From: Sphaerolaimus hirsutus
Taxonomy: Eukaryota; Nematoda; Chromadorea; Monhysterida; Sphaerolaimidae
Reading direction: 5' to 3'
Length of the DNA: 64,000 nucleotides
Assembly: GCA_964036195.1 (NCBI GenBank)
Contig: OZ038455.1
Span: 7,333,855 to 7,397,854 of the forward strand
Program-made: the position numbers and the translations under genes
Shown here: one piece after another, positions 6,083 through 45,600 of the stretch
Position numbering within the stretch: position 1 is the stretch's first letter
How the letters are laid out: each line of letters opens with the position of its first letter
Notes under the pieces: generated by a model
Told to the model about the DNA's origin: nothing
Databases searched by the model: none
The model's input: only the letters and a program-made list of their open reading frames with translations

Positions 6083-6127
6083 ATGTTTTTCCCACATTCG
6101 CACGTGAAGCTTGTCTGTTTTTGTGCA
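6083..6127 (-). pseudogene. Exon 2 of AChBP-like gene copy C (45 nt)
   Basis: The minus-strand exon lies between TTGCAG and a GCAAGT donor. Its 15 codons resemble the main gene's exon 2 (CTKT..KLHVRMWEKH) and correspond to the conserved 45-nt exon of nicotinic receptor genes. The frame is intact, but the partner exon 1 is split by a foldback, so this copy is called a pseudogene. No later exons of this copy were found downstream (coordinates below 6083). Confidence 0.65.
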
Positions 6128-6214: not shown

Positions 6215-6577
6215 GAAATCAAAACCGTATAGTGAATAACTCATGGTGTCATTTATGCCGTCGGTATGTTTCTTAACTGGGGGCACTCCCAGAACCTGTC
6301 AAAAGCCCTGTAAAGTGTCAAATGTCATGCAAAGTTTCAAAAGTCATGGAAAATGCCCTGCAAAATGGCAACTCGGCAATTTTGCAGGGCACTTTACATG
6401 ACTTTTGACACTTTGCATGACATTTGACATTTTACATCGCATTTTACAGGGTCTGGGAATAGCACCTGGTCGCACGTTCACACTGCCATAGTTGCTAAGT
6501 AAATCTTCTTGTAGACGCTTTTCATCGAAATCGGCGAATGCGAAAGTAATAAGACAAAATGAAAATAGCAGTTTCAT
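6215..6577 (-). pseudogene. Exon 1 of AChBP-like gene copy C, split by a foldback insertion
   Basis: The frame starts at 6577 with a hydrophobic signal peptide (MKLLFSFCLITFAFA) and the nicotinic N-terminal helix (FDEKRLQEDLLSNYGSVNVR). After Arg-Pro it runs into unrelated sequence and stops. The missing part resumes at 6280 and ends at a GTACGT donor after ..GFDF. Removing the 185-bp foldback (6281-6465) plus one CTGG repeat leaves exactly 174 nt, the length of exon 1 in the other two copies. The disruption is therefore a recent precise insertion and this copy is almost surely inactive. Confidence 0.8.
6281..6465. mobile_element. CTGTAAA foldback element with 4-bp target duplication
   Basis: A 185-bp near-palindrome. 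The left end GGGCACTCCCAGAACCTGTC pairs with the right end ..CAGGGTCTGGGAATAGCAC. CTGG occurs on both sides (6277-6280 and 6466-6469). The paralogous exon at 44482-44655 shows the empty site (TTGACTGGTCGCACG), which fixes the borders. Stem words are CTGTAAAATGTCAAAAGTCATG. No coding capacity. Confidence 0.85.
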
Positions 6578-16713: not shown

Positions 16714-16913
16714 NNNNNNNNNNNNNNNNNNNNNNNNNNNNNNNNNNNNNNNNNNNNNNNNNNNNNNNNNNNNNNNNNNNNNNNNNNNNNNNNNNNNNNN
16801 NNNNNNNNNNNNNNNNNNNNNNNNNNNNNNNNNNNNNNNNNNNNNNNNNNNNNNNNNNNNNNNNNNNNNNNNNNNNNNNNNNNNNNNNNNNNNNNNNNNN
16901 NNNNNNNNNNNNN
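16714..16913. other. Assembly gap (200 N)
   Basis: Exactly 200 undetermined bases, probably a fixed-size placeholder for a collapsed tandem array. Confidence 0.99.
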
Positions 16914-18260: not shown

Positions 18261-18305
18261 TTGTGTCTCCCACATTCGAAGGTGAAGCTTGTTAGTCTTT
18301 GTGCA
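18261..18305 (-). CDS. Exon 2 of AChBP-like gene copy B (45 nt)
   Basis: The minus-strand exon follows ..CATTCGCAG and ends at a consensus GTGAGT donor. It encodes CTKTNKLHLRMWETQ and has the 45-nt length of the conserved nicotinic receptor exon. Unlike copies A and C it uses GT, not GC. No 110-nt exon was found at lower coordinates; a hAT element (17136-18045) and the gap lie there. Confidence 0.75.
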
Positions 18306-18379: not shown

Positions 18380-18553
18380 AAAATCAAAGCCAAGTGGACT
18401 ATAACTGATGGTGACGTTTATAGAATCAGAATTTTTTGTCACAGGCCGTGCATTTATGCTGCCATATTGGGACAGTAAATCCACTTGTAGACGTTTTTCA
18501 TCGAACTTAGCAGTTGCTAAAGGAATTAGACAAAATAGTAGTATTTTTATCAT
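18380..18553 (-). CDS. Exon 1 of AChBP-like gene copy B: signal peptide and N-terminal helix
   Basis: Starts at 18553; 58 codons ending ..SPLGFDF before a GTATGC donor. Residues 1-15 form a hydrophobic signal peptide (MIKILLFCLIPLATA). Residues 17-37 are the nicotinic N-terminal helix (FDEKRLQVDLLSQYGS..RP), followed by ..SINVTISY with an N-glycosylation site. It has the same length and donor position as copies A and C, with many mostly conservative differences, so it is an older paralogue. The rest of the gene is not visible here, so function is uncertain. Confidence 0.75.
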
Positions 18554-32777: not shown

Positions 32778-33080
32778 ACAGCTATTCATTGGCTATATAT
32801 AACATCACAAAGTTCTGCCACCTGTCTGATATATGTTGACTCATAACCATATCTAGGAGCTTTTGAAAAAAACGGTTTTATTTTAAAATCCCTTTTTTGA
32901 AGAAAAAAAACAGTTAAAAAACCCAAGTCATTGAAAACAACCTTTTTCGACCATCTCTATGTTCAACATACTTGCTAATGTGTGACTTTAAATCAATCAT
33001 GAAAAGTTTTAATCTTCTAATCATGAAAAGTAAATATAAGGCGAATGCAAGCAGAATCGATGCTCATCACTGTCAATCAC
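32778..33080. repeat. Right half of the interspersed repeat hit by the LTR element, then non-coding
   Basis: ACAGCTATTCATTGG..AACATCACAAAGTTCTGCCACCTGTCTGATATATG continues the repeat whose left half is about 24790-24945. The sequence to 33080 is AT-rich and would be the 3' UTR of the loop C exon at 33148; AATAAA is present on the minus strand near 32880. Confidence 0.6.
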
Positions 33081-33148
33081 CCATCCAACTGAATCGTGAA
33101 TGTAACGTGGATGCTGCCGTACGGCTCTGGGAAGCTCGAGTAGAATTT
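33081..33148 (-). CDS. Duplicate loop C exon of the AChBP-like gene, Cys-Cys replaced by Ser-Phe
   Basis: The minus-strand exon follows ..TTTTTGTCGCAG and reads KFYSSFPEPYGSIHVTFTI.., then LDG and TGA (33077-33079). It matches the loop C exon at 38185-38114 except for a few residues; the two vicinal cysteines that define agonist-binding subunits are Ser-Phe. The acceptor, the frame and the immediate stop are all kept. With 37914-37808 it forms a second, downstream loop F/loop C pair. It could be an alternative 3' end or a decaying duplicate. Confidence 0.65.
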
Positions 33149-36798: not shown

Positions 36799-37030
36799 TA
36801 CCGTATTACCTAGAATTAACTTTCCTTGAATGAACACCCCTCGAAATACCCCCCCCCCATAGAATTTTGCTGGGGAATAGTATTTCTAATGATAATAATA
36901 CAGCATTTTGCTCATAATACTCCCACCCAAATTGAGTGTAAAGAGAATGCACATGACAAATACCGCAGTTTGTGGTCAGTATGATGCAGACTGACCAATG
37001 ACTGAGTGACGTTAGGGCAGGGTTTATGCG
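36799..37030. repeat. Partial TACCGTA-type element
   Basis: The left end TACCGTATTACCTAGAATTAAC with C runs is followed by AAATTGAGTGTAAAGAGAATG, the usual interior. No matching right end. Confidence 0.5.
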
Positions 37031-37464
37031 TACCGTATTTCCTCGAAATACCCCCCCTCGTTTGACCCCCCCTCTCGGGACCACTATGAAACAATCACCC
37101 CCCTCGAAATACCCCCCCCCCAAATTGAGTGTAAAGGGAACGTACATGACAATAACTGTAGTTTGTGTTCTGTGTACTGCAGAACACACGTTAAAACAAT
37201 GTCGGTGTCACGTTAGAACAGTGTACATACCATCTACATACTAATATTAGTCTACAGAACCTTATAAATGGCGGTTTTTGTTGCATTTTTCGACGTCTGC
37301 GTACGTTTCAGACGACAATTTCGTACTTGGTTTTCAAAAAATTTTCTTGTGAAATAATAACCCCCCTCGAAATACCCCCCCCCCCGCTCGTTTAACCCCC
37401 CCCCCCCTTTCGGGACCACTATGAAACAATGACCCCCCGGGGGGGTATTTCGAGGAAATACGGT
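37031..37464. mobile_element. TACCGTA-type element
   Basis: The ends TACCGTATTTCCTCGAAATAC and ..TATTTCGAGGAAATACGGTA are inverses. The interior is the reverse of that in 13574-14037 (GTCTGCGTACGTTTCAGACG). Long C tracts on the plus strand. A further right-end fragment follows, ending at about 37630. Confidence 0.75.
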
Positions 37465-37807
37465 ATATACAGTAATATTCATCTATAAACACATTTACAA
37501 TTTTCACAATTTCCTGGTGAAATAATATAACCCCTCGAATAACCCCCCCCCCCTTCTCGAATTAAACACCCTGAGAATTTGCTGGCAAAAAAATAAATCC
37601 CCTGGGTGTATTTTGAGGTAATACGGTAACTGGCGTTCACAATCACATGGCTTCGATTTGATGTTACGGTAATTCTACTTGCAATGACAATGACAATTCC
37701 AATTAGCAATTCAATTTTCCCACTCAAACGTTGTCATCAGATCAAAATCACATGAATGTTGCTTAAACAGTCACTTTAAAGTGTCACAAAACTGAAACCA
37801 AGCCAAC

Positions 37808-37914
37808 CTCCTTGTAGGAAACTTTCGGCACGCCAACCAATGTTGCACTGCCGCTTTTGTTCGACCGCAGTTCATTCATGTCGATAGAGCCAGGCTTTAT
37901 GCTGACTTTGTTCG
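37808..37914 (-). CDS. Duplicate loop F exon of the AChBP-like gene
   Basis: The minus-strand exon follows ..TGCTTTTCCTGCAG. It encodes NKVSIKPGSIDMNELRSNKS then GSATLVGVP.., 107 nt against 113 nt in the first copy: two codons shorter, frame kept. The donor side reads GAG|GTTGGC, weaker than GTGAGT in the first copy. It begins within about 100 bases of the AATAAA that follows the first loop C exon, so the two-exon unit was duplicated in tandem. Confidence 0.65.
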
Positions 37915-37998
37915 CTGCAGGAAAAGCAGAAATTAGGTAAGCCAAAGATTTGTTATTTGTGCGATATATCAGGGTCTGGAATTGCATCCTACAGCGCA

Positions 37999-38004
37999 TT
38001 TATT
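37999..38004 (-). terminator. AATAAA polyadenylation signal of the AChBP-like gene
   Basis: AATAAA on the minus strand about 110 bases after the TGA at 38116-38114, a normal distance for a short 3' UTR. Confidence 0.5.
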
Positions 38005-38113
38005 GGTCAACGTCAAGTTAAAAGTCAAGTTCAACATATTTGCAAATGTGTGACTTACAATCGAGGGCATAAAAGTCTAAAACGAGTGCAACGAGAATCG
38101 ATGCTGGTCACTA

Positions 38114-38185
38114 TCACCCATCCAACTCAATCGTGAACGCAACGTGGATGCTGCCGTACGGCTCCGGGCAGCACGAGTAAAATTT
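38114..38185 (-). CDS. Gene A exon 6: loop C with vicinal cysteines, then stop
   Basis: Follows ..GTTCCGTCGCAG. Reads KFYSCCPEPYGSIHVAFTI, ELDG and TGA TAG. CysCys-Pro-Glu-Pro-Tyr is the loop C signature of agonist-binding nicotinic subunits and AChBP. A possible donor (GG|GTGATA) overlaps the stop, so splicing to membrane exons cannot be excluded from sequence alone, but none are seen downstream and the duplicate exon keeps the same stop. Confidence 0.8.
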   Translation of the reverse strand, partial: KFYSCCPEPYGSIHVAFTIELDG

Positions 38186-38530
38186 CTGCGACGGAACATT
38201 GCATGAAAAATAAAATCAGAATTCAGATTTCAAGTACCTATGTACTGTATTACCTCCCTGTAAAAGGCCCTGTGAAATGTAAAATACAATGTAAAATGCC
38301 ATGTGTCATGTAAAAGCCCCTGTATAGTGACATGTGTATCCACATCTTATTGTATCATATCCAAATGTTATGTTTTTGAATCCCTCTATCCAAATCATAT
38401 TTGACATGATTTGGATACAAAAAACACATAATATTTGGATACGATACAACAAGATTTGGATACACATGACACTTTAGAGGGTATTTTGCATGACATTAGA
38501 CACTTTACAGGGTGATTTCGTGACACTTTC
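38186..38530. repeat. Intronic foldback with TTTGGATAC words
   Basis: Left arm words CCTGTAAAAGGCCCTGTGAAATG and inverse words near ..GACACTTTACAGGG; the centre carries ATTTGGATACAAAA and its inverse. A CTGTAAA-family relative with a different core. Confidence 0.5.
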
Positions 38531-39518
38531 TAGGGTGTGCCAGAAGCTGAAACTTGGGGGAGATATTGGCGCAACCCCCCTCTACTTTGCATGAATTGAG
38601 GGAGTCGCGGCGACCCTTTACAGGATGTGTCGCAATAAGTGCAAAAAAAATTTATTGGCTTTTCTGCTGTCCCACACAGATCTGGCACCCACTGATTTCT
38701 GAGCTGTGGGAGGGGTATAAATCTAAAATTTTGGGGATGTGTTGGCAACACCCCTCCCCTACTATACACTATTCAATAATGTGGGATTAATGTGAAAAAT
38801 TTCTAAAATATTCTTTTATTCTCTAAAAAACACGATCACCCAATAGATGGATGACAAATAATTCACTTTTTGAACTTTTTTATTAGACACTTGGAGAGCT
38901 CGTTTACGATACTTTAAAGGGGAGGGTTTGATGATTAAAGTTATGTAAAGAACCATACTTCTAAAATGCATGCATTGCAAAGTTTACTTGGGGGGAATTT
39001 TATTACAGCATAATGACATCATTGCAGGAACAAAACTTTACAAAATTTACACTTTGAAATTCCCCCCAAGTAAATTTTGCAATGCATGCATTTTAGAGGT
39101 GTGGTTTTTGACACAAATTTAATCATCAAACCTGTCACTTTAAAGTATCATAAACCAGCTCTTTAAGTGTCTGCTGAAAAAGTAAAGTGAATTATTTGTC
39201 ATCCATCTATTGGGTGGTCATGTTTTTTTAGAGAAAAAAAATATTTTCGAAATTTTTCATATTTACCTCACATTATTGAATAGTGTATAGTAGGGGAGGG
39301 GTGTTGGGAACACATCCCCAAAATTTTAGATTTATACCCCTCCCACAGCCCAGAAATCAGTGGGTGCCGGACGTGTGCGGGACACAAGAAAAGCCAATGA
39401 AAATTTTGCACTTATGATGACCCACCCTCTAAGGGGTCGCCGCAACCCCTGAATTCATGCGATATAGAGGGGGGTTGCGTCAATATTTCACCCAGGTTTC
39501 AGTTTCTAGCGCACCCTA
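38531..39518. mobile_element. 988-bp near-complete palindrome in an intron
   Basis: From TAGGGTGTGCCAGAAGCTG at the left, the sequence is mirrored to ..CAGTTTCTAGCGCACCCTA at the right, with arms of about 490 bases and a centre near 39025. Moderate divergence and small indels are scattered along the arms. The ends start TAGGG, like several hAT-type termini here, but no 8-bp duplication is visible. No coding frame survives comparison of the arms. Confidence 0.75.
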
Positions 39519-39834
39519 GCTCTGGAGATAGGATGTCACAAGTGTCATCAAAAATAGGGTGCCGGACGTGACCGGAATTTGTATCGCAGCTACACCTAGA
39601 CAGATTGTGTAGCTAAATATCTACGTTTTTATGTCCAAATATATCCTGTTTGGACACATTTATCACCTGTTTTGGGTATGCAAATGCCTACTATTTACTG
39701 AGACCCTTACGAATATTTCTAACGAAATAATAACCCCTCCCCTTTGAATAATCCCCCCAATCGAATTACCCCCCCCTCAAATTTTGCGGGCAAAAACACA
39801 AAAACCCATGGGGGTATTTTGAGGTAATACAGTA
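39519..39834. repeat. Intronic TACCGTA-element fragment
   Basis: Holds the interior words AGCTACACCTAGACAGATTGTGTAG and TATATCCTGTTTGGACAC, then CCCC runs, ending TATTTTGAGGTAATACAGTA. The left end is missing. Confidence 0.5.
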
Positions 39835-39916
39835 TACTTGAATATGAAAATGAAATAAGAAACTAATAAAAAATGTGTCATCACTAATTTTTCCGGTAAA
39901 CAGCGCATGAACTCAC

Positions 39917-40029
39917 GAACTTGTACTCCACTTCGGGCACGCCAACCAACGTGGCACTGCCGCTTTTGTTCGACGGCAGCTCACTCATGTCCATATACGG
40001 TTTCACAGGCTTTATGCTGACTTTGTCCG
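39917..40029 (-). CDS. Gene A exon 5: loop F
   Basis: 113 nt between ..TTTTCTCGCAG and a GTGAGT donor. After one base carried from exon 4 it reads DKVSIKPVKPYMDMSELPSN then KSGSATLVGVP.., matching the loop F to beta-9 part of nicotinic domains (DLSxY..SxEWxLVGVP). Ends in phase 0 at ..EYKF. Confidence 0.75.
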
Positions 40030-40258
40030 CTGCGAGAAAAGCAGAAACTTGAAGTTTGCGTGATAAAATTGAGAACGAGTGGAGCTATCGCAGCCATAAT
40101 TTCAGGGATCCTTTCCTATTTAGTTGGTCATGTTGACCTAAAATTTGACATTAATCCGACTACCCCGTGACAAGTTATTTGAAGTCTAGAGGGGGCGTTC
40201 AAATTGCCACACCCTGTATGCACATAACAACTTAAGTGGCAGTCATCCCGGGTACATG

Positions 40259-40639
40259 TAGGGTGTCAGAAAAAAAATTTACGGAAAACGGAAACGGGAA
40301 AAAAATTTCAGCGGCCGGAAAACGGAACGGAAAACGGAATAAATTTGCAGAAAAAGTTGGGCCAGAAAAAGGTAAAAAGGAGGCGGAAAAATGGAAAATT
40401 GAGGCGGAAAATGGAAAAAAGCGGAAAAACTGGAAATTGAGGCAGAAGACGGAAAAAAGGCAGAAAAACTGAAAAGTTAGCCGGAAAATGGAAAATGAGC
40501 CGGAGAAACGGAAACGGAAAAAAAAGTTGCCGGAAAACGGAAAACAAATTTCAGCAGCCGGAAAACGGAACGGAAAATGGAAAAAATTCGCCTGCAGAAA
40601 ACAGAAACGGAAAACGGAAAACGGAAATTTGACACCCTA
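40259..40639. mobile_element. hAT-like element made of CGGAAAACGGAAA repeats
   Basis: The left end TAGGGTGTCAGAAAAAAAAT and right end ..AAATTTGACACCCTA are inverses; GGTACATG is duplicated (40251-40258 and 40640-40647). Almost the whole interior is an array of CGGAAA/GCGGAAAA words in one orientation. Related words occur near 47030-47160. Confidence 0.85.
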
Positions 40640-40782
40640 GGTACATGTAGCCAACCCCCCTAGGGTACCCACCTATGATGTCCAAATGGTTTGCACACTC
40701 ATCATTTTTAAATTTTGACAATGTCAGTGACGCAGTGACGAAGTCACTCTGCTGCAAATACTATTCTGCAGGAAAGTGTACC

Positions 40783-41185
40783 TACCGTATTTCCTCGAAA
40801 TACCCCCCCCCCCCCAATTGAGTGTAAACAAAAGCTACGGTTTATAACCCGGGCAATGCATAACACTAACGTTAAAAACAATGATTGAGTTAAGTTAGAA
40901 GGTAGAACATTGTTTTTACGATCTGCACACTTATAAAGTCGGCAGACGTATCGCCCTACAAACATTTGCGTCAATGTCTCCAGTGGAGAGTGCATGACGC
41001 ATGATTATTGTGACGCAATATTTTAAGGATTGGAATGGATCGGGTCACGTATGAATCTTGGCCCTTATCCAAGTTTCCAGTTGCGTATTATACAAATGCG
41101 AGTGAAAAGTCAAAGTGAGCTAAAAATCGTTAAAATTTGTCCACTTTGCATATTTCTACCTTCATAATCGCTATTTTTGTTTATA
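40783..41185. repeat. TACCGTA-element left part
   Basis: Starts TACCGTATTTCCTCGAAATAC with a long C run and AATTGAGTGTAAAC. A shorter full element at 41186-41288 follows directly; its right end may also serve this copy. Confidence 0.5.
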
Positions 41186-41288
41186 TACCGTATTTCCTCG
41201 AAATACCCCCCAGGGGGTGATTGTTTCATAGTGGTCCCGAGAGGGAGGGGGTATTTCGAGGGGGGAGGTATTTCGAGGAAATACGGTA
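41186..41288. mobile_element. Minimal TACCGTA-type element (103 bp)
   Basis: TACCGTATTTCCTCGAAATAC and its inverse ..TATTTCGAGGAAATACGGTA bound a short GTGATTGTTTCATAGTGGTCC core. Confidence 0.75.
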
Positions 41289-41870
41289 CATGGTTATATA
41301 GCTAGTGTTAGCCTTTTTATTCACATTTATGGCGGATTTCGCAATTTTGGCCGGCTGCCAAGTTCTCATACGGGGACTCTTCTATTGGAACGGAGCCAAC
41401 CAATTAAAAATTTCAAAAAAAACGGTAAAACGGTCGTTTAAACCGTCAAATTTTATCGCTTGCGACGGGCAATGTTGAAAATGTAGGTAATTATATAGGG
41501 CATCGCCCGCACGGACGCGGCGACGCGTCCATTTATCTTTTAATATTCTTCTTTTTCAATTCCGAGCGTCCGGGTGGGACACAACTTTTCGTGTTCGCTC
41601 TATTCGCGAGCGAATTCGAACTCTCCAATTTTGTAGGATGAAATGTCCGCCGACTTTACAATGCTGTAGAATCTTATACATAGTGGTGTTTGTTACATTT
41701 AAAATTCTCTCTCGGAAAAAATAAACCCCCGGGGGGTATTTTGAGGAAATACGGTACATGAACATATGGGTATGACTATTACGCAAACTATTACGCAAAC
41801 GTGTAGCTGTTAGTGCTTTAAATTGTGTTGGTGCTTTCAACATGTCGATTGAGGGCTGATATCTCTTAGC
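41289..41870. other. Gene-free stretch
   Basis: Includes a TACCGTA right-end fragment (about 41710-41755). Short open frames on the minus strand look compositional. Confidence 0.35.
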
Positions 41871-42021
41871 TAGTGATGTAAAACGCGCCAAAAGCGCCAT
41901 GGCTCTTTTCCGATTTCTAGCGCCAAGCGCCAATGGCGCCACAGCAAGGTAGTACCAAGCGCCAAAAGCGCCATGGCGCTTTTGGCTTTGGCGCTAGCGC
42001 CATGGCGCTTTTACATCACTA
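41871..42021. mobile_element. 151-bp hAT-like element of GGCGCC repeats
   Basis: The ends TAGTGATGTAAAACGCGCC and GGCGCTTTTACATCACTA are inverses; CTCTTAGC is duplicated exactly (41863-41870 and 42022-42029). The whole interior is the GCGCCAAGCGCC array, so this is the minimal form of the element at 1810-3035. Confidence 0.9.
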
Positions 42022-42099
42022 CTCTTAGCATTCTTTGTGTGTTTGTTATTTGTCACGCTGGATATGTCATTTCACGGTTATGCTTTATCCACCTTTATC

Positions 42100-42691
42100 T
42101 ATCATATACCTATCCTCAAATAAGTCCACCGGGGAGTTATTTTTTCGTCGGAAGCTTTTGAGGGGCGAGTTATCCGAGAGGGGGAGTAATCCGAGAGGGG
42201 GTAGTTATTGTAGGGGGGAATTATTTTTCGTCAGAATTTTCAGTATGAGTTATTTACTGCACAAATGGGGTAATATTGGTAACATTAATCATTTGTAAAA
42301 ATGCAAAATTAACAATTCGTGCAGTGAAATTAATAGTACTGAATTTTAGCAGCAAAAATACCCCCCCCCCCAGATTGAGTGTAAAGAGAACGTACATGAC
42401 AAATGCTGCAGTTTGTGTTCTGCGTAGTGCAGAACACACGTTAAAACAATGTCGGAATCACGTGAGAGCAGTGTTTATACCAATATTAGTATACAGGAGT
42501 CTGTACATGTCAGTTATTGATGCATTTTTCTACCCCAGCGCACATCACAAACAACGATTCTGTACTATCATTTCAAAAAATAGTGACGAAATAATAACCC
42601 CCCCTCGAAATACCCCCTCGTTTAACCCCCCCCCCCCTCTCGGGAGCACTATGAAACAATCACCCCCGGGGGGTATTTCGAGGAAATACGG
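42100..42691. repeat. Mixed TACCGTA-family fragments
   Basis: CCTCAAATAAGTCCACCGGGG with G-rich words (42110-42240), then the AGATTGAGTGTAAAGAGAACG interior (42370-42570), then a right end ..TATTTCGAGGAAATACGGTA at 42692. At least two copies are tangled. Confidence 0.5.
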
Positions 42692-43165
42692 TACCGTAAA
42701 CGCTCCAATAATGCGACGGTCGGTTTATTGTTTTCAGCACATTTTTGGGGGTCGCATTATTGGAGGGGTCGCTTAATTGGAAGGGGTCGCATTGTATTTT
42801 TCGACACCTTACCAACTCCACAGTTCATGTAACTCTAGTATGAGCATGGATTTGTAAAGAAATATTGCCCTTGCAATATAGCAATACGTATGCCCTTGTA
42901 AATTGCCCGCTGGCTCTGGCGAACTGGTCGCCACCTTGTCCGCCGAATTAGCGTTGTCCGAAGATTGCGACATCATTTTCTTACGTCCATTTGTTGTTTT
43001 TTGTTTTTCTTTGGGGGTCGCATTATTGGAGGGGGTCGTATTATTGGAGGGGGTCGTATTATTGGAGAGGGTCGCTTTATACTTACACAACGTGCCAAAG
43101 GGGGTCGTACTATTGGAGAGGTCGCTTTATTGGAGGGGGGTCGTCCTAATAGAGCATTTACGGTA
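42692..43165. mobile_element. TACCGTA-family element, GCTCCAATAATGCGAC sub-type
   Basis: The left end TACCGTAAACGCTCCAATAATG and right end ..CCTAATAGAGCATTTACGGTA are inverted. GGGGGTCGCATTATTGGAGG is repeated at both sides. It shares only the outer TACCGTA with the poly-G sub-types. Confidence 0.7.
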
Positions 43166-43345
43166 TTTACATATTAAATACACAAAACGTTGTTTGTAAA
43201 TGTACATTAAACGTTGTTTGTAAATGTGATATGTTGTGAAATGCTTTCTACCTATAAAATGGAGGGAGTTATTCGAGGGGGGAGTTATTTTTTACTCAAA
43301 CTTACAAGAGGGGGACTTAGTCGAGAGGGGGACTCACAAACTCAC

Positions 43346-43509
43346 AATCGTACGTCCAACTGCCACTTTTCAATCCACAGGTGTATTTGCCATTGGGTAG
43401 AGGAAAACATGGAATTGTGTACTTGATGGCGGGAACATAAATTATCCCGCCATCATTTGACACAACAAATGGATACGGTATTGCGTCCTCGAGCATAAAT
43501 TCGTACTCG
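43346..43509 (-). CDS. Gene A exon 4: Cys-loop and loop B
   Basis: 164 nt between a pyrimidine-rich acceptor (..CATTCAAAAG) and a GTGAGT donor. It reads ..EYEFMLEDAIPYPFVVSNDG.., then IIYVPAIKYTIPCFPLPNG, KYTCGLKSGSWTYD. VPA..(x)C matches the entry to the Cys-loop in AChBP, and GSWTYD is the loop B box. Only nine residues separate the two Cys, against 13 in receptors and 12 in molluscan AChBP. Confidence 0.8.
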
Positions 43510-43576
43510 CTTTTGAATGCGGGGGAGGGGGTACTTTTATCCAATAATCCTGGTTTCTTTACCAGTGCGATATACA

Positions 43577-43687
43577 TACCGTATATCCTCGAATAAGACA
43601 GGTGAGTTTTATTTTCTTCAGAGTTTCTGAGTGAAGGGCTTTCAAGGGAGTGAGTTATTCAATGGGTTTTATTTGAGGATACACGGT
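43577..43687. mobile_element. Short TACCGTA-family element in intron 3
   Basis: TACCGTATATCCTCGAATAAG and the worn inverse ..TATTTGAGGATACACGGT. It lies between exons 3 and 4 of gene A. Confidence 0.6.
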
Positions 43688-43711
43688 TGTTAGTACTAAA
43701 CAGTTACATAC

Positions 43712-43821
43712 CCAGAATAGGATACAAAATCAGGCGACCAGATGTCATTGTATCCAAAGTGCGTTTGTGAAACTCCACCGTAATCTTCTGGATTCCACAC
43801 CAATTTTGAATCATGCCAATT
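43712..43821 (-). CDS. Gene A exon 3 (110 nt): loop D end and loop A
   Basis: Follows ..GTAAAATTTCAG and ends at a GTATGT donor. Reads NWHDSKLVWNPEDYGGVSQT then ..YNDIWSPDFVSYS. W-x-D-x-x-L-x-W-N-P-x-D-Y-G-G and WSPD are signatures of the nicotinic ligand-binding domain. The 110-nt length is the same as the homologous exon in vertebrate receptor genes. Confidence 0.88.
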
Positions 43822-44212
43822 CTGAAATTTTACGAAAAATGCTGGAATTTTACGTCTGAGCTGTAATCGATCCTTTATACAAAAAATACGTTTTTGAAGG
43901 GAGCTTTCAAGTGTGTTATTTATTTGTATCCAATTTGTAGTATTCTTCCAAGGGGAGTTTTTCCTTTGCCAATTTTTGGTTTTCCAGTTCCCTAGTTTCC
44001 AATTTCTTCAGTATTTTTGGTTGAAAATGCAAAAAAGGCAGAAACACAATTCAAAAAATCAATTTCACGCGGAGAGCCATAACAAAAAGTGCAAACGTGT
44101 CTCACATCAAAGATTGTGTTTGATGTGTGGTGAAGTGCCGTGAAGTGTGTTCATACAGTGTGTCAGTTTGGTGAAGACAATCCATCGGGCCTCAAGATGT
44201 TCCAAAATAAAA

Positions 44213-44290
44213 GATGTAAAAGCGCCATGGCATGACGTTGACTACTGACGCTATCACCAAAACAAAAAGCGCCATGGCGCTTTTGGCGTA
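44213..44290. repeat. GGCGCC array fragment
   Basis: GATGTAAAAGCGCCATGGC and AGCGCCATGGCGCTTTTGGC, a remnant of a hAT-like element in intron 2. Confidence 0.5.
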
Positions 44291-44348
44291 TGGTTTGTAT
44301 TGGCAATTAACAACTCTGAAAAAGAGTAAGGAAACAAATGAAACTTGC

Positions 44349-44393
44349 ATGTTTTTCCCACATTCGCACGTGAAGCTTGTTCGTTTTTGTGCA
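44349..44393 (-). CDS. Gene A exon 2 (45 nt) with a GC donor
   Basis: Follows ..ACCATTTGCAG; encodes CTKTNKLHVRMWEKH; the next bases are GCAAGT, the consensus of rare GC-AG introns. Using this donor restores the W-x4-W spacing across the junction (WEKH|NWHD) seen in nicotinic proteins. Copy C has the same GC donor; copy B has GT. Confidence 0.75.
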
Positions 44394-44481
44394 CTGCAAA
44401 TGGTATGAGAAAAACAAGGTGATTAGTGAAGACAAATTCTGTAGAAAGTGTGAAAAGCTACAAGAAATTTGAGAAACGTAC

Positions 44482-44655
44482 GAAATCAAAACCGTGTAGT
44501 GCATAACTCATAGTGTCATTTATACCGTCGGTTTTTTTCTTGACTGGTCGCACGTTCACACTGCCATAGTTGCTAAGTAAATCCTCTTGTAGACGCTTTT
44601 CATCGAAATCGGCAAATGCGAAAGTAATGAGACAAAATGAAAATAGCAGTTTCAT
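44482..44655 (-). CDS. Gene A exon 1: signal peptide and N-terminal helix
   Basis: 58 codons from 44655 to a GTACGT donor. Residues 1-15 are MKLLFSFCLITFAFA, a clear signal peptide. Residues 17-37 (FDEKRLQEDLLSNYGSVNVR, P) are the N-terminal helix of nicotinic domains. It ends ..YALHGFDF in phase 0. Very similar to the exon 1 at 6577. Confidence 0.82.
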
Positions 44656-45600
44656 GTTTTGTTTTGTATTTGGGAAGTTTTGATAAAAAATTTAGTCAAA
44701 AATTGCACACTTGTCGGCATTTTGCGCGTTAAATACATTTAACGTCAGCTTGTGCAGATAAACTGTTTGGAAATTTGATGCATTATATCAGATTTCACGC
44801 TTTTAAAGTAGTACACATATCTCCGATTTGTTGACATTCATTGTTGGATGATATGCACAGAACACTCGCACAATGGTTTCACAATTTGCACGATGGCAAC
44901 ATTTTCGACTTTTTGCAGCAGCAGAAATTTTCAATCATAATTACTCGCCTTAAACATGGCAAAGGCCAATTCTGCAAGCGGATCAATGACAATAATGGTG
45001 ATGGATGGTAGAAAAGTGAACTGTGAATGTGTAAAAAAATTGTTAATGAACATACTGGTGCCAAGCCAATCCCAGACCCCGTAAAATGTCCTGTAAAATG
45101 TCATATGTCCTGTAAACCATCAAAAGTCATGTAAAATGCCCTGTAAAGTGGTAAATGGACTTTTACAATTATCCCGGGCATTTTACATGACTTAAGACAC
45201 TGCATAATATTTGAAATACTACAGGGCATTTTACATGGTCTGTGACTGTCCTCTGGCCACTTATGTTTAATTTACAGCACACAATTTGTTTGTTTTTTAC
45301 CACTTTTACCACTTATCACCATTTCCTTGTCACTTAACCACTTAAGCATCCAATCAAGGTCCAATCCTGCACCCTGCGAAGGGCCTTGTCAAACTGAAGA
45401 CATCTTCAAGCAACCGGTAAATTGTTTGTAGAACCTCTAGCTAGGCAATTTACTTGTTACTTGATCTTCACATTTGAAACATTTACAAACATCTTGCCAG
45501 TTATTTGAAGTGTTGTTTACAATAGTATAGAACACAATTTGACTGAGCACTAGACAGGATGTGAGATCAAGCCCTGAATTTTGTTGAACAAAAAGTATTC
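44656..45600. repeat. Upstream region of gene A, duplicated at 6.6-7.5 kb
   Basis: Matches 6578-7500 over most of its length, including a foldback at 45062-45250 (AATCCCAGACCCCGTAAAATG). The promoter should be here; no TATA box stands out. Confidence 0.6.

Follow-up and report, generated by a model that had tools for sequence, protein, structure and literature searches.

Results

Gene A encodes a predicted ligand-binding domain that stops before the membrane

The 64,000-nucleotide stretch of the Sphaerolaimus hirsutus genome analysed here (the window; C7:7333855-7397854, where C7 is contig OZ038455.1 of assembly GCA_964036195.1) carries on its minus strand a gene, which we call gene A, for a predicted nicotinic-type ligand-binding domain (LBD) resembling acetylcholine-binding protein (AChBP). 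Six exons join in phase to 678 nt, or 225 codons and a TGA, and the initial annotation of this DNA, which had proposed six in-phase minus-strand exons of about 225 codons, proves exact to the base. Exon 1 (44482-44655, 174 nt, intron-free) has the start codon, an apparent signal peptide and the N-terminal helix, and extends up to strand b1. Exon 2 (44349-44393, 45 nt) carries loop D with W70 and is followed by a GC-AG intron, exon 3 (43712-43821, 110 nt) encodes WNPEDYGG...IWSPDFVSYSG and Y108 of loop A, and exon 4 (43346-43509, 164 nt) holds loop E, a 9-residue Cys-loop between C144 and C154, and W161 of loop B. Exon 5 (39917-40029, 113 nt) covers a region that aligns with strands b8-b9, and exon 6 (38114-38185, 72 nt including the TGA) supplies loop C, YSCCPEPY, and strand b10. 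Past exon 6, a possible polyadenylation signal, AATAAA, lies on the same strand at 37999-38004. The motifs named in the initial annotation (WNPEDYGG, IWSPD, GSWTYD and YSCCPEPY) are all present in the translation. The predicted protein opens with MKLLFSFCLITFAFA, which reads by eye as a signal peptide, contains two N-glycosylation sequons, and ends in FTIELDG, where a receptor would continue into the first membrane segment, M1.

All introns of gene A are GT-AG save intron 2. Its GC donor is supported because paralogues described below (genes C and D and one copy on contig C2) have GC at the identical base of exon 2; gene B and the gene on contig C13 (hereafter C13) have GT at that site, after an exon that is likewise 45 nt long. 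Exons of 45 and 110 nt are also those of vertebrate nicotinic receptor genes, an equality already drawn in the initial annotation; both lengths are found in gene A. Within intron 4 lies a purine-rich low-complexity block (40292-40591, plus strand) with units of ~43 and ~57 nt, and repeats of the types GGGGGTATTTCGAGGAAATACGGTA and GGGGGTCGCATTATTGGAGGGG, together with long G or C runs, are scattered over 37000-45500. An Rfam scan of the window found no RNA family above its gathering score.

Domain content, structural matches and binding pocket

Pfam assigns residues 19-221 of protein A to PF02931 (Neur_chan_LBD; E 1.2e-26, profile positions 1-212 of 216) and finds no other family at E ≤ 1. The LBD thus stands alone, and the TGA precedes any membrane segment, as had been proposed. 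Because of this domain score and the existence of paralogues, gene A is not a chance pattern. A PDB search with protein A gave 153 sequences at E ≤ 0.001, and the first 30 of the 60 matches listed are soluble acetylcholine receptor/AChBP or AChBP chimeras, the AChBP-type entries being those of Aplysia; a protein search, which the initial annotation had recommended as a check, does lead to AChBPs. The best match is 4zjs, a chimera of AChBP with receptor alpha (E 2.4e-29), the best unchimeric match is 5lxb (E 5.5e-25), and the first ordinary receptor among the listed matches is 4aq5, 'acetylcholine receptor subunit alpha' (E 4.4e-21). By architecture and PDB matches, AChBP is the closest kind to this predicted protein. 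In pairwise comparison, protein A shares 27% of its residues with the AChBP of Lymnaea, 26% with that of Aplysia and 28% with human alpha-7. Searching 5.8 billion predicted proteins with A gave 319 candidates, none at E ≤ 0.001.

Aligned to Lymnaea AChBP with its seven classical pocket positions, protein A has 7/7 pocket residues (W70, Y108, W161, Y205, C207, C208 and Y212), as do C and C13. The vicinal cysteines are both gone from B, replaced by S and F, and in D an L replaces the loop-D W and an H the loop-A Y. The Cys-loops of all five genes are 9-14 residues long, with A at the lower end, and are free of FPFD, a motif that this genome does carry in 5/5 of its nicotinic-type fragments extending into the Cys-loop (L001-L005).

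Gene A belongs to an amplified family

A search of the genome (348,482,957 bases, 762 contigs) returned 116 related-exon matches at E ≤ 1, and exon-wise tblastn over 184 kb around the window revealed a head-to-tail series on the C7 minus strand that runs from gene A through two extra exon copies (e5' and e6'), B-like exons 1-2 and a gap to genes C and D. The family has five or more complete genes: gene A, which lies in the window, genes C and D, also on C7, gene B on the small contig C272, and C13. Their predicted products, from models with valid splice sites, are 225 (A), 227 (B), 227 (C), 228 (D) and 234 (C13) residues long. The 'probable new AChBP' of the initial annotation holds as a membrane-free LBD gene with AChBP as its closest kind, with the refinement that it belongs to a multigene family.

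The extra exon-5 copy e5' (37808-37914, minus strand) has the phase of gene A exon 5; it could either be spliced after exon 4 or be left over from a further copy. The extra exon-6 copy e6' (33077-33148, minus strand) encodes KFYSSFPEPYGSIHVTFTIQLDG and a stop, with SSF for SCC and the residues of gene B exon 6. Exon 4 is in phase with e5' and e6', and an alternative isoform of A that would lack the vicinal cysteines is therefore possible. The B-like copy is represented here by just exon 1 (18380-18553) and exon 2 (18261-18305, 45 nt, GT donor), both on the minus strand, with an assembly gap of 200 N downstream (16714-16913); gene B on C272 may be another version of this copy. Gene C, also on the minus strand, has in the window exon 1a (6466-6577, 112 nt), intron 1 (6277-6465, 189 nt), exon 1b (6215-6276, 62 nt) and exon 2 (6083-6127, 45 nt, GC donor), and extends past the window to C7:7329260. 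Its intron 1, an inverted-repeat introner-like element, is found in neither A nor B.

A stop soon after b10 recurs in nine last exons, those of A, B, C, D and C13, two on C2 and one each on C655 and C9. Those on C2, C655 and C9 were read as single exons, and on C2 some of the exons have an interrupted look; e6' and a C747 exon repeat the B exon and are uncounted, and L055, L061 and L062 gave no such reading. Unlike these AChBP-like last exons, a receptor exon of the same genome (in L060) continues into RRRTLYYGFNL. Paralogues A-D are under purifying selection, with dN/dS values of 0.31, 0.30, 0.44, 0.28, 0.43 and 0.33 for their six pairs (Nei-Gojobori, own script). For pairs with C13, dS is saturated in 3/4 and the ratio unusable; the B-C13 pair has a dN/dS of 0.18 at a dS of 2.3.

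Channel exons are not found near gene A

Two human M1-M4 queries gave no matches at E ≤ 1 across the 184 kb around gene A; as a control, the same two queries found 5/5 receptor loci of this genome. Among the 150 of 286 candidates scored in a genome scan with Pfam PF02932, none lies at 7.27-7.46 Mb of C7.

Trees weakly favour common descent with molluscan AChBPs

Fragment trees were built from loop D to the Cys-loop (88 columns), with two molluscan AChBPs as the AChBP sample. The five genes cluster with support of 90/85 (15 rows) and 96/94 (18 rows), and they join the molluscan AChBPs at 95/94 and 79/92, respectively. When C13 and the Lymnaea AChBP are left out, the Aplysia AChBP still joins the family (90/91; bootstrap not settled). 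Long-branch attraction is a flagged possibility in these fragment trees. In an unrooted whole-domain tree (11 rows), family members, AChBPs and receptors form three separate groups. Common descent with molluscan AChBPs is weakly favoured. The placement in a tree that the initial annotation had called for comes out on the AChBP side in the 18-row tree, and a grouping with receptors survives the topology test (p-AU 0.336). The annotation's statement that size and content match AChBP agrees with the architecture and the PDB matches; the tree grouping is weak, and identity to molluscan AChBPs (26-27%) does not exceed that to human alpha-7 (28%).

An introner-like element splits exon 1 in three paralogues

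No intron interrupts exon 1 of A or of B, but C, D and C13 each have one there, an inverted-repeat element of 189 nt (C), 188 nt (D) or 172 nt (C13) with inverted ends visible in all three. In C and D it begins GTGC(T/C)A(T/A)TCCCAGACCCTG and ends with an imperfect inverted copy and CCAG; its predicted removal gives CGACCAG joined to T(T/C)AAG, as in A, where CGACCAGTCAAG runs uninterrupted. The element end supplies the donor GT, and the acceptor AG seems to come from a short target-site duplication. In C13 the copy lies a few bases beyond the position it has in C and D. Copies lie at window positions 6277-6465 (minus strand), at C7:7298699-7298886, in the C13 gene (L033) and in a C2 gene (L024), and we suspect from its translation that the receptor locus L060 carries one too.

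Allowing up to 2 mismatches, the element end motif has 10,855 matches genome-wide (5,468 forward, 5,387 reverse), and a reversed control pattern has 0; within the window, at up to 3 mismatches, it has 2 matches and shuffles have 0. With its splicing predicted, the element fits an introner, an intron-making transposable element of a kind found in 175 of 3,325 genomes in the survey described in PMC9860276. The same kind of repeat seems to precede a posterior-type Hox homeobox, inside the homeodomain, at L068 (C1:12717587-12717745); this is another possible introner, read from the translation.

Other observations in the genome

Its receptors, Hox-type homeodomains and mitochondrial code mark the animal as a bilaterian. 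At least 11 contigs exceed 23 Mb, a number reminiscent of cheilostome bryozoans (11 chromosomes are recorded in three of four species, 9 in the fourth), though the chromosome sizes of Membranipora differ. Contig C762 is the mitochondrial genome (14,754 bp, with COX1; 17% GC over the 14,295 bp read); nad1 and nad2, identified by eye, are on the opposite strand to cox1, no atp8 was recognised by eye, and repeats follow atp6. By comparison, Flustra and Bugula have every mitochondrial protein gene on one strand, and Flustrellidra has cox2 on the other. The COX1 of C762 reads best with genetic code 5, judged by eye at conserved residues. Loci L064 and L065 encode Hox-type homeodomains with YLTRKRRQEIS and, by our own count, without the K3 and Y20 of rotifer MedPost, residues that the rotifer paper gives as shared by MedPost proteins. 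A genome scan for arthropod cuticle (PF00379) and molluscan haemocyanin (PF14830) domains gave 0 matches, with no positive control scored, and so speaks only tentatively against an arthropod or a mollusc with haemocyanin.

Discussion

Gene A very likely codes for a secreted AChBP-like protein, related to the nicotinic LBD and free of membrane segments, that is one member of an amplified family. Its features support a new representative of the AChBP kind, or a small group of such representatives. AChBPs are on record from gastropods and an annelid (PMC3423370), and a putative one has been reported from the spider Cupiennius (PMC4569296); the remark in the initial annotation that the family is known mostly from molluscs and annelids thus covers two recorded groups, with the spider to be added. 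Like the AChBPs of Lymnaea, Aplysia, Biomphalaria and Capitella, and putatively of Cupiennius, protein A has a soluble-type LBD with no membrane segments, an aromatic pocket, vicinal cysteines and an altered Cys-loop, the likeness being by sequence for Lymnaea and Aplysia and by description for Capitella and the spider. It differs in the retention of receptor-type 45- and 110-nt exons, in the amplification of its gene into an array with pocket-divergent members, in its identity of only 26-27% to Lymnaea and Aplysia, and in a Cys-loop of just 9 residues, a feature whose length is described as variable among AChBPs in the spider paper (PMC4569296). With the nicotinic acetylcholine receptor (nAChR) alpha subunits (alpha-7, alpha-2 and muscle alpha-1) it shares the LBD family, the pocket residues and the 45- and 110-nt exon lengths; it differs in that M1-M4 were not found, in having neither a basic pre-M1 motif nor FPFD, and in its stop after b10. 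A literature search for acetylcholine-binding protein together with bryozoa returned nothing relevant among the papers listed.

Several points weigh against this identification. The splicing and expression of gene A are predicted from DNA, its apparent signal peptide is an eye judgement of MKLLFSFCLITFAFA, and ligand binding and pentamer assembly are likewise predictions. Protein A is no closer in identity to molluscan AChBPs (26-27%) than to human alpha-7 (28%), and C13 finds its best PDB match in nAChR alpha-2 (5.4e-23), with its best AChBP chimera at 7e-21. The topology test leaves a family-plus-receptors grouping standing. The silence of the PF02932 scan at the locus is weaker evidence than the local test over 184 kb, and there a third query, a long receptor frame from this genome, gave three weak matches (E 0.031, 0.20 and 0.96). 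Two of these, at query residues 242-270, have the look of a dispersed repeat; the remaining one corresponds to the loop-C exon in gene C.

If gene A were instead the decaying remains of a nicotinic subunit gene, truncated by the loss of its membrane exons or already a pseudogene, the partial copies in the window (e5' at 37914, e6' at 33148 and B-like exons 1-2 at 18553-18261) and the interrupted look of some C2 exons would be natural companions. Against this stand five uninterrupted frames whose splice sites are valid, dN/dS of 0.28-0.44 in six A-D pairs, and nine last-exon sequences that stop soon after b10, and we regard decay as very unlikely. Alternative splicing of gene A to distant M1-M4 exons, which would make it a membrane receptor, has in its favour the GT after GATGG at the exon-6 stop and the fact that receptor genes carry M1-M4 exons downstream of the loop-C exon. 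What stands downstream of A, though, is other copies of the family; the human M1-M4 queries found nothing in the 184 kb, PF02932 was not listed between 7.27 and 7.46 Mb of C7 among the candidates scored, and the basic pre-M1 motif is absent. We consider such a receptor extremely improbable.

Other readings concern the function and ancestry of a soluble protein. Amorphous calcium carbonate-binding proteins (ACCBPs) of abalone and pearl oyster are AChBP variants for which a role in calcium carbonate control is proposed and whose glycans are held responsible for binding carbonate (PMC3423370); by description they share with A an AChBP-type soluble architecture, and A has two N-glycosylation sequons. 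A mineral-binding, non-cholinergic role nevertheless seems unlikely to us, given that the agonist pocket is complete in A, C and C13. A weightier possibility, to which we give somewhat less than an even chance and which is compatible with an AChBP-like gene A, is that these soluble proteins arose from the animal's own nicotinic receptors, independently of molluscan AChBPs. The receptor-type 45- and 110-nt exons are retained here, against an exon pattern in Biomphalaria AChBP genes that is described as unprecedented, with intron 1 alone as in non-molluscan species (PMC3423370); a clade of the family plus receptors keeps a p-AU of 0.336, and C13 is closest to alpha-2. On the other side, the family falls with the molluscan AChBPs in the best trees of the fragment (95/94 and 79/92) and with that of Aplysia in the reduced tree (90/91). 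A fuller version of independent origin would have nicotinic receptors give rise, once their channel exons were lost, to a lineage-specific soluble family unconnected with that of molluscs. The family would then have diversified in the array into pocket-complete A, C and C13, B without vicinal cysteines and D without two aromatics, members that might combine into secreted hetero-oligomeric receptors differing in ligand preference. We offer this as a tentative and rather unlikely scenario.

Taking gene A as an AChBP-like member of a secreted family, a mechanism can be proposed. A nicotinic-receptor ancestor would have lost its membrane exons and still retained its 45- and 110-nt exons. Protein A would be secreted, and A-type proteins are probably pentameric and ligand-binding, with one pocket per interface in which W70 of one subunit would lie opposite Y108, W161, Y205, C207-C208 and Y212 of the next. 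Outside the cell, such a pentamer could serve to soak up or buffer acetylcholine or cholinergic toxins; for molluscan AChBPs the proposed roles include glial suppression of cholinergic transmission, regulation of non-synaptic transmission and protection from phytotoxins (PMC3423370). The pockets of B and D have diverged, and these paralogues may therefore bind other ligands or serve as partner subunits.

AChBPs are standard structural stand-ins for nicotinic receptors, and their natural role and origin are unsettled. With receptor-type exons and both intact and altered pockets, the family described here is a test case. It is a possible source of new crystallisation scaffolds, and it could help to trace the path from channel subunit to secreted binding protein and to tell a single origin of AChBPs from repeated ones.

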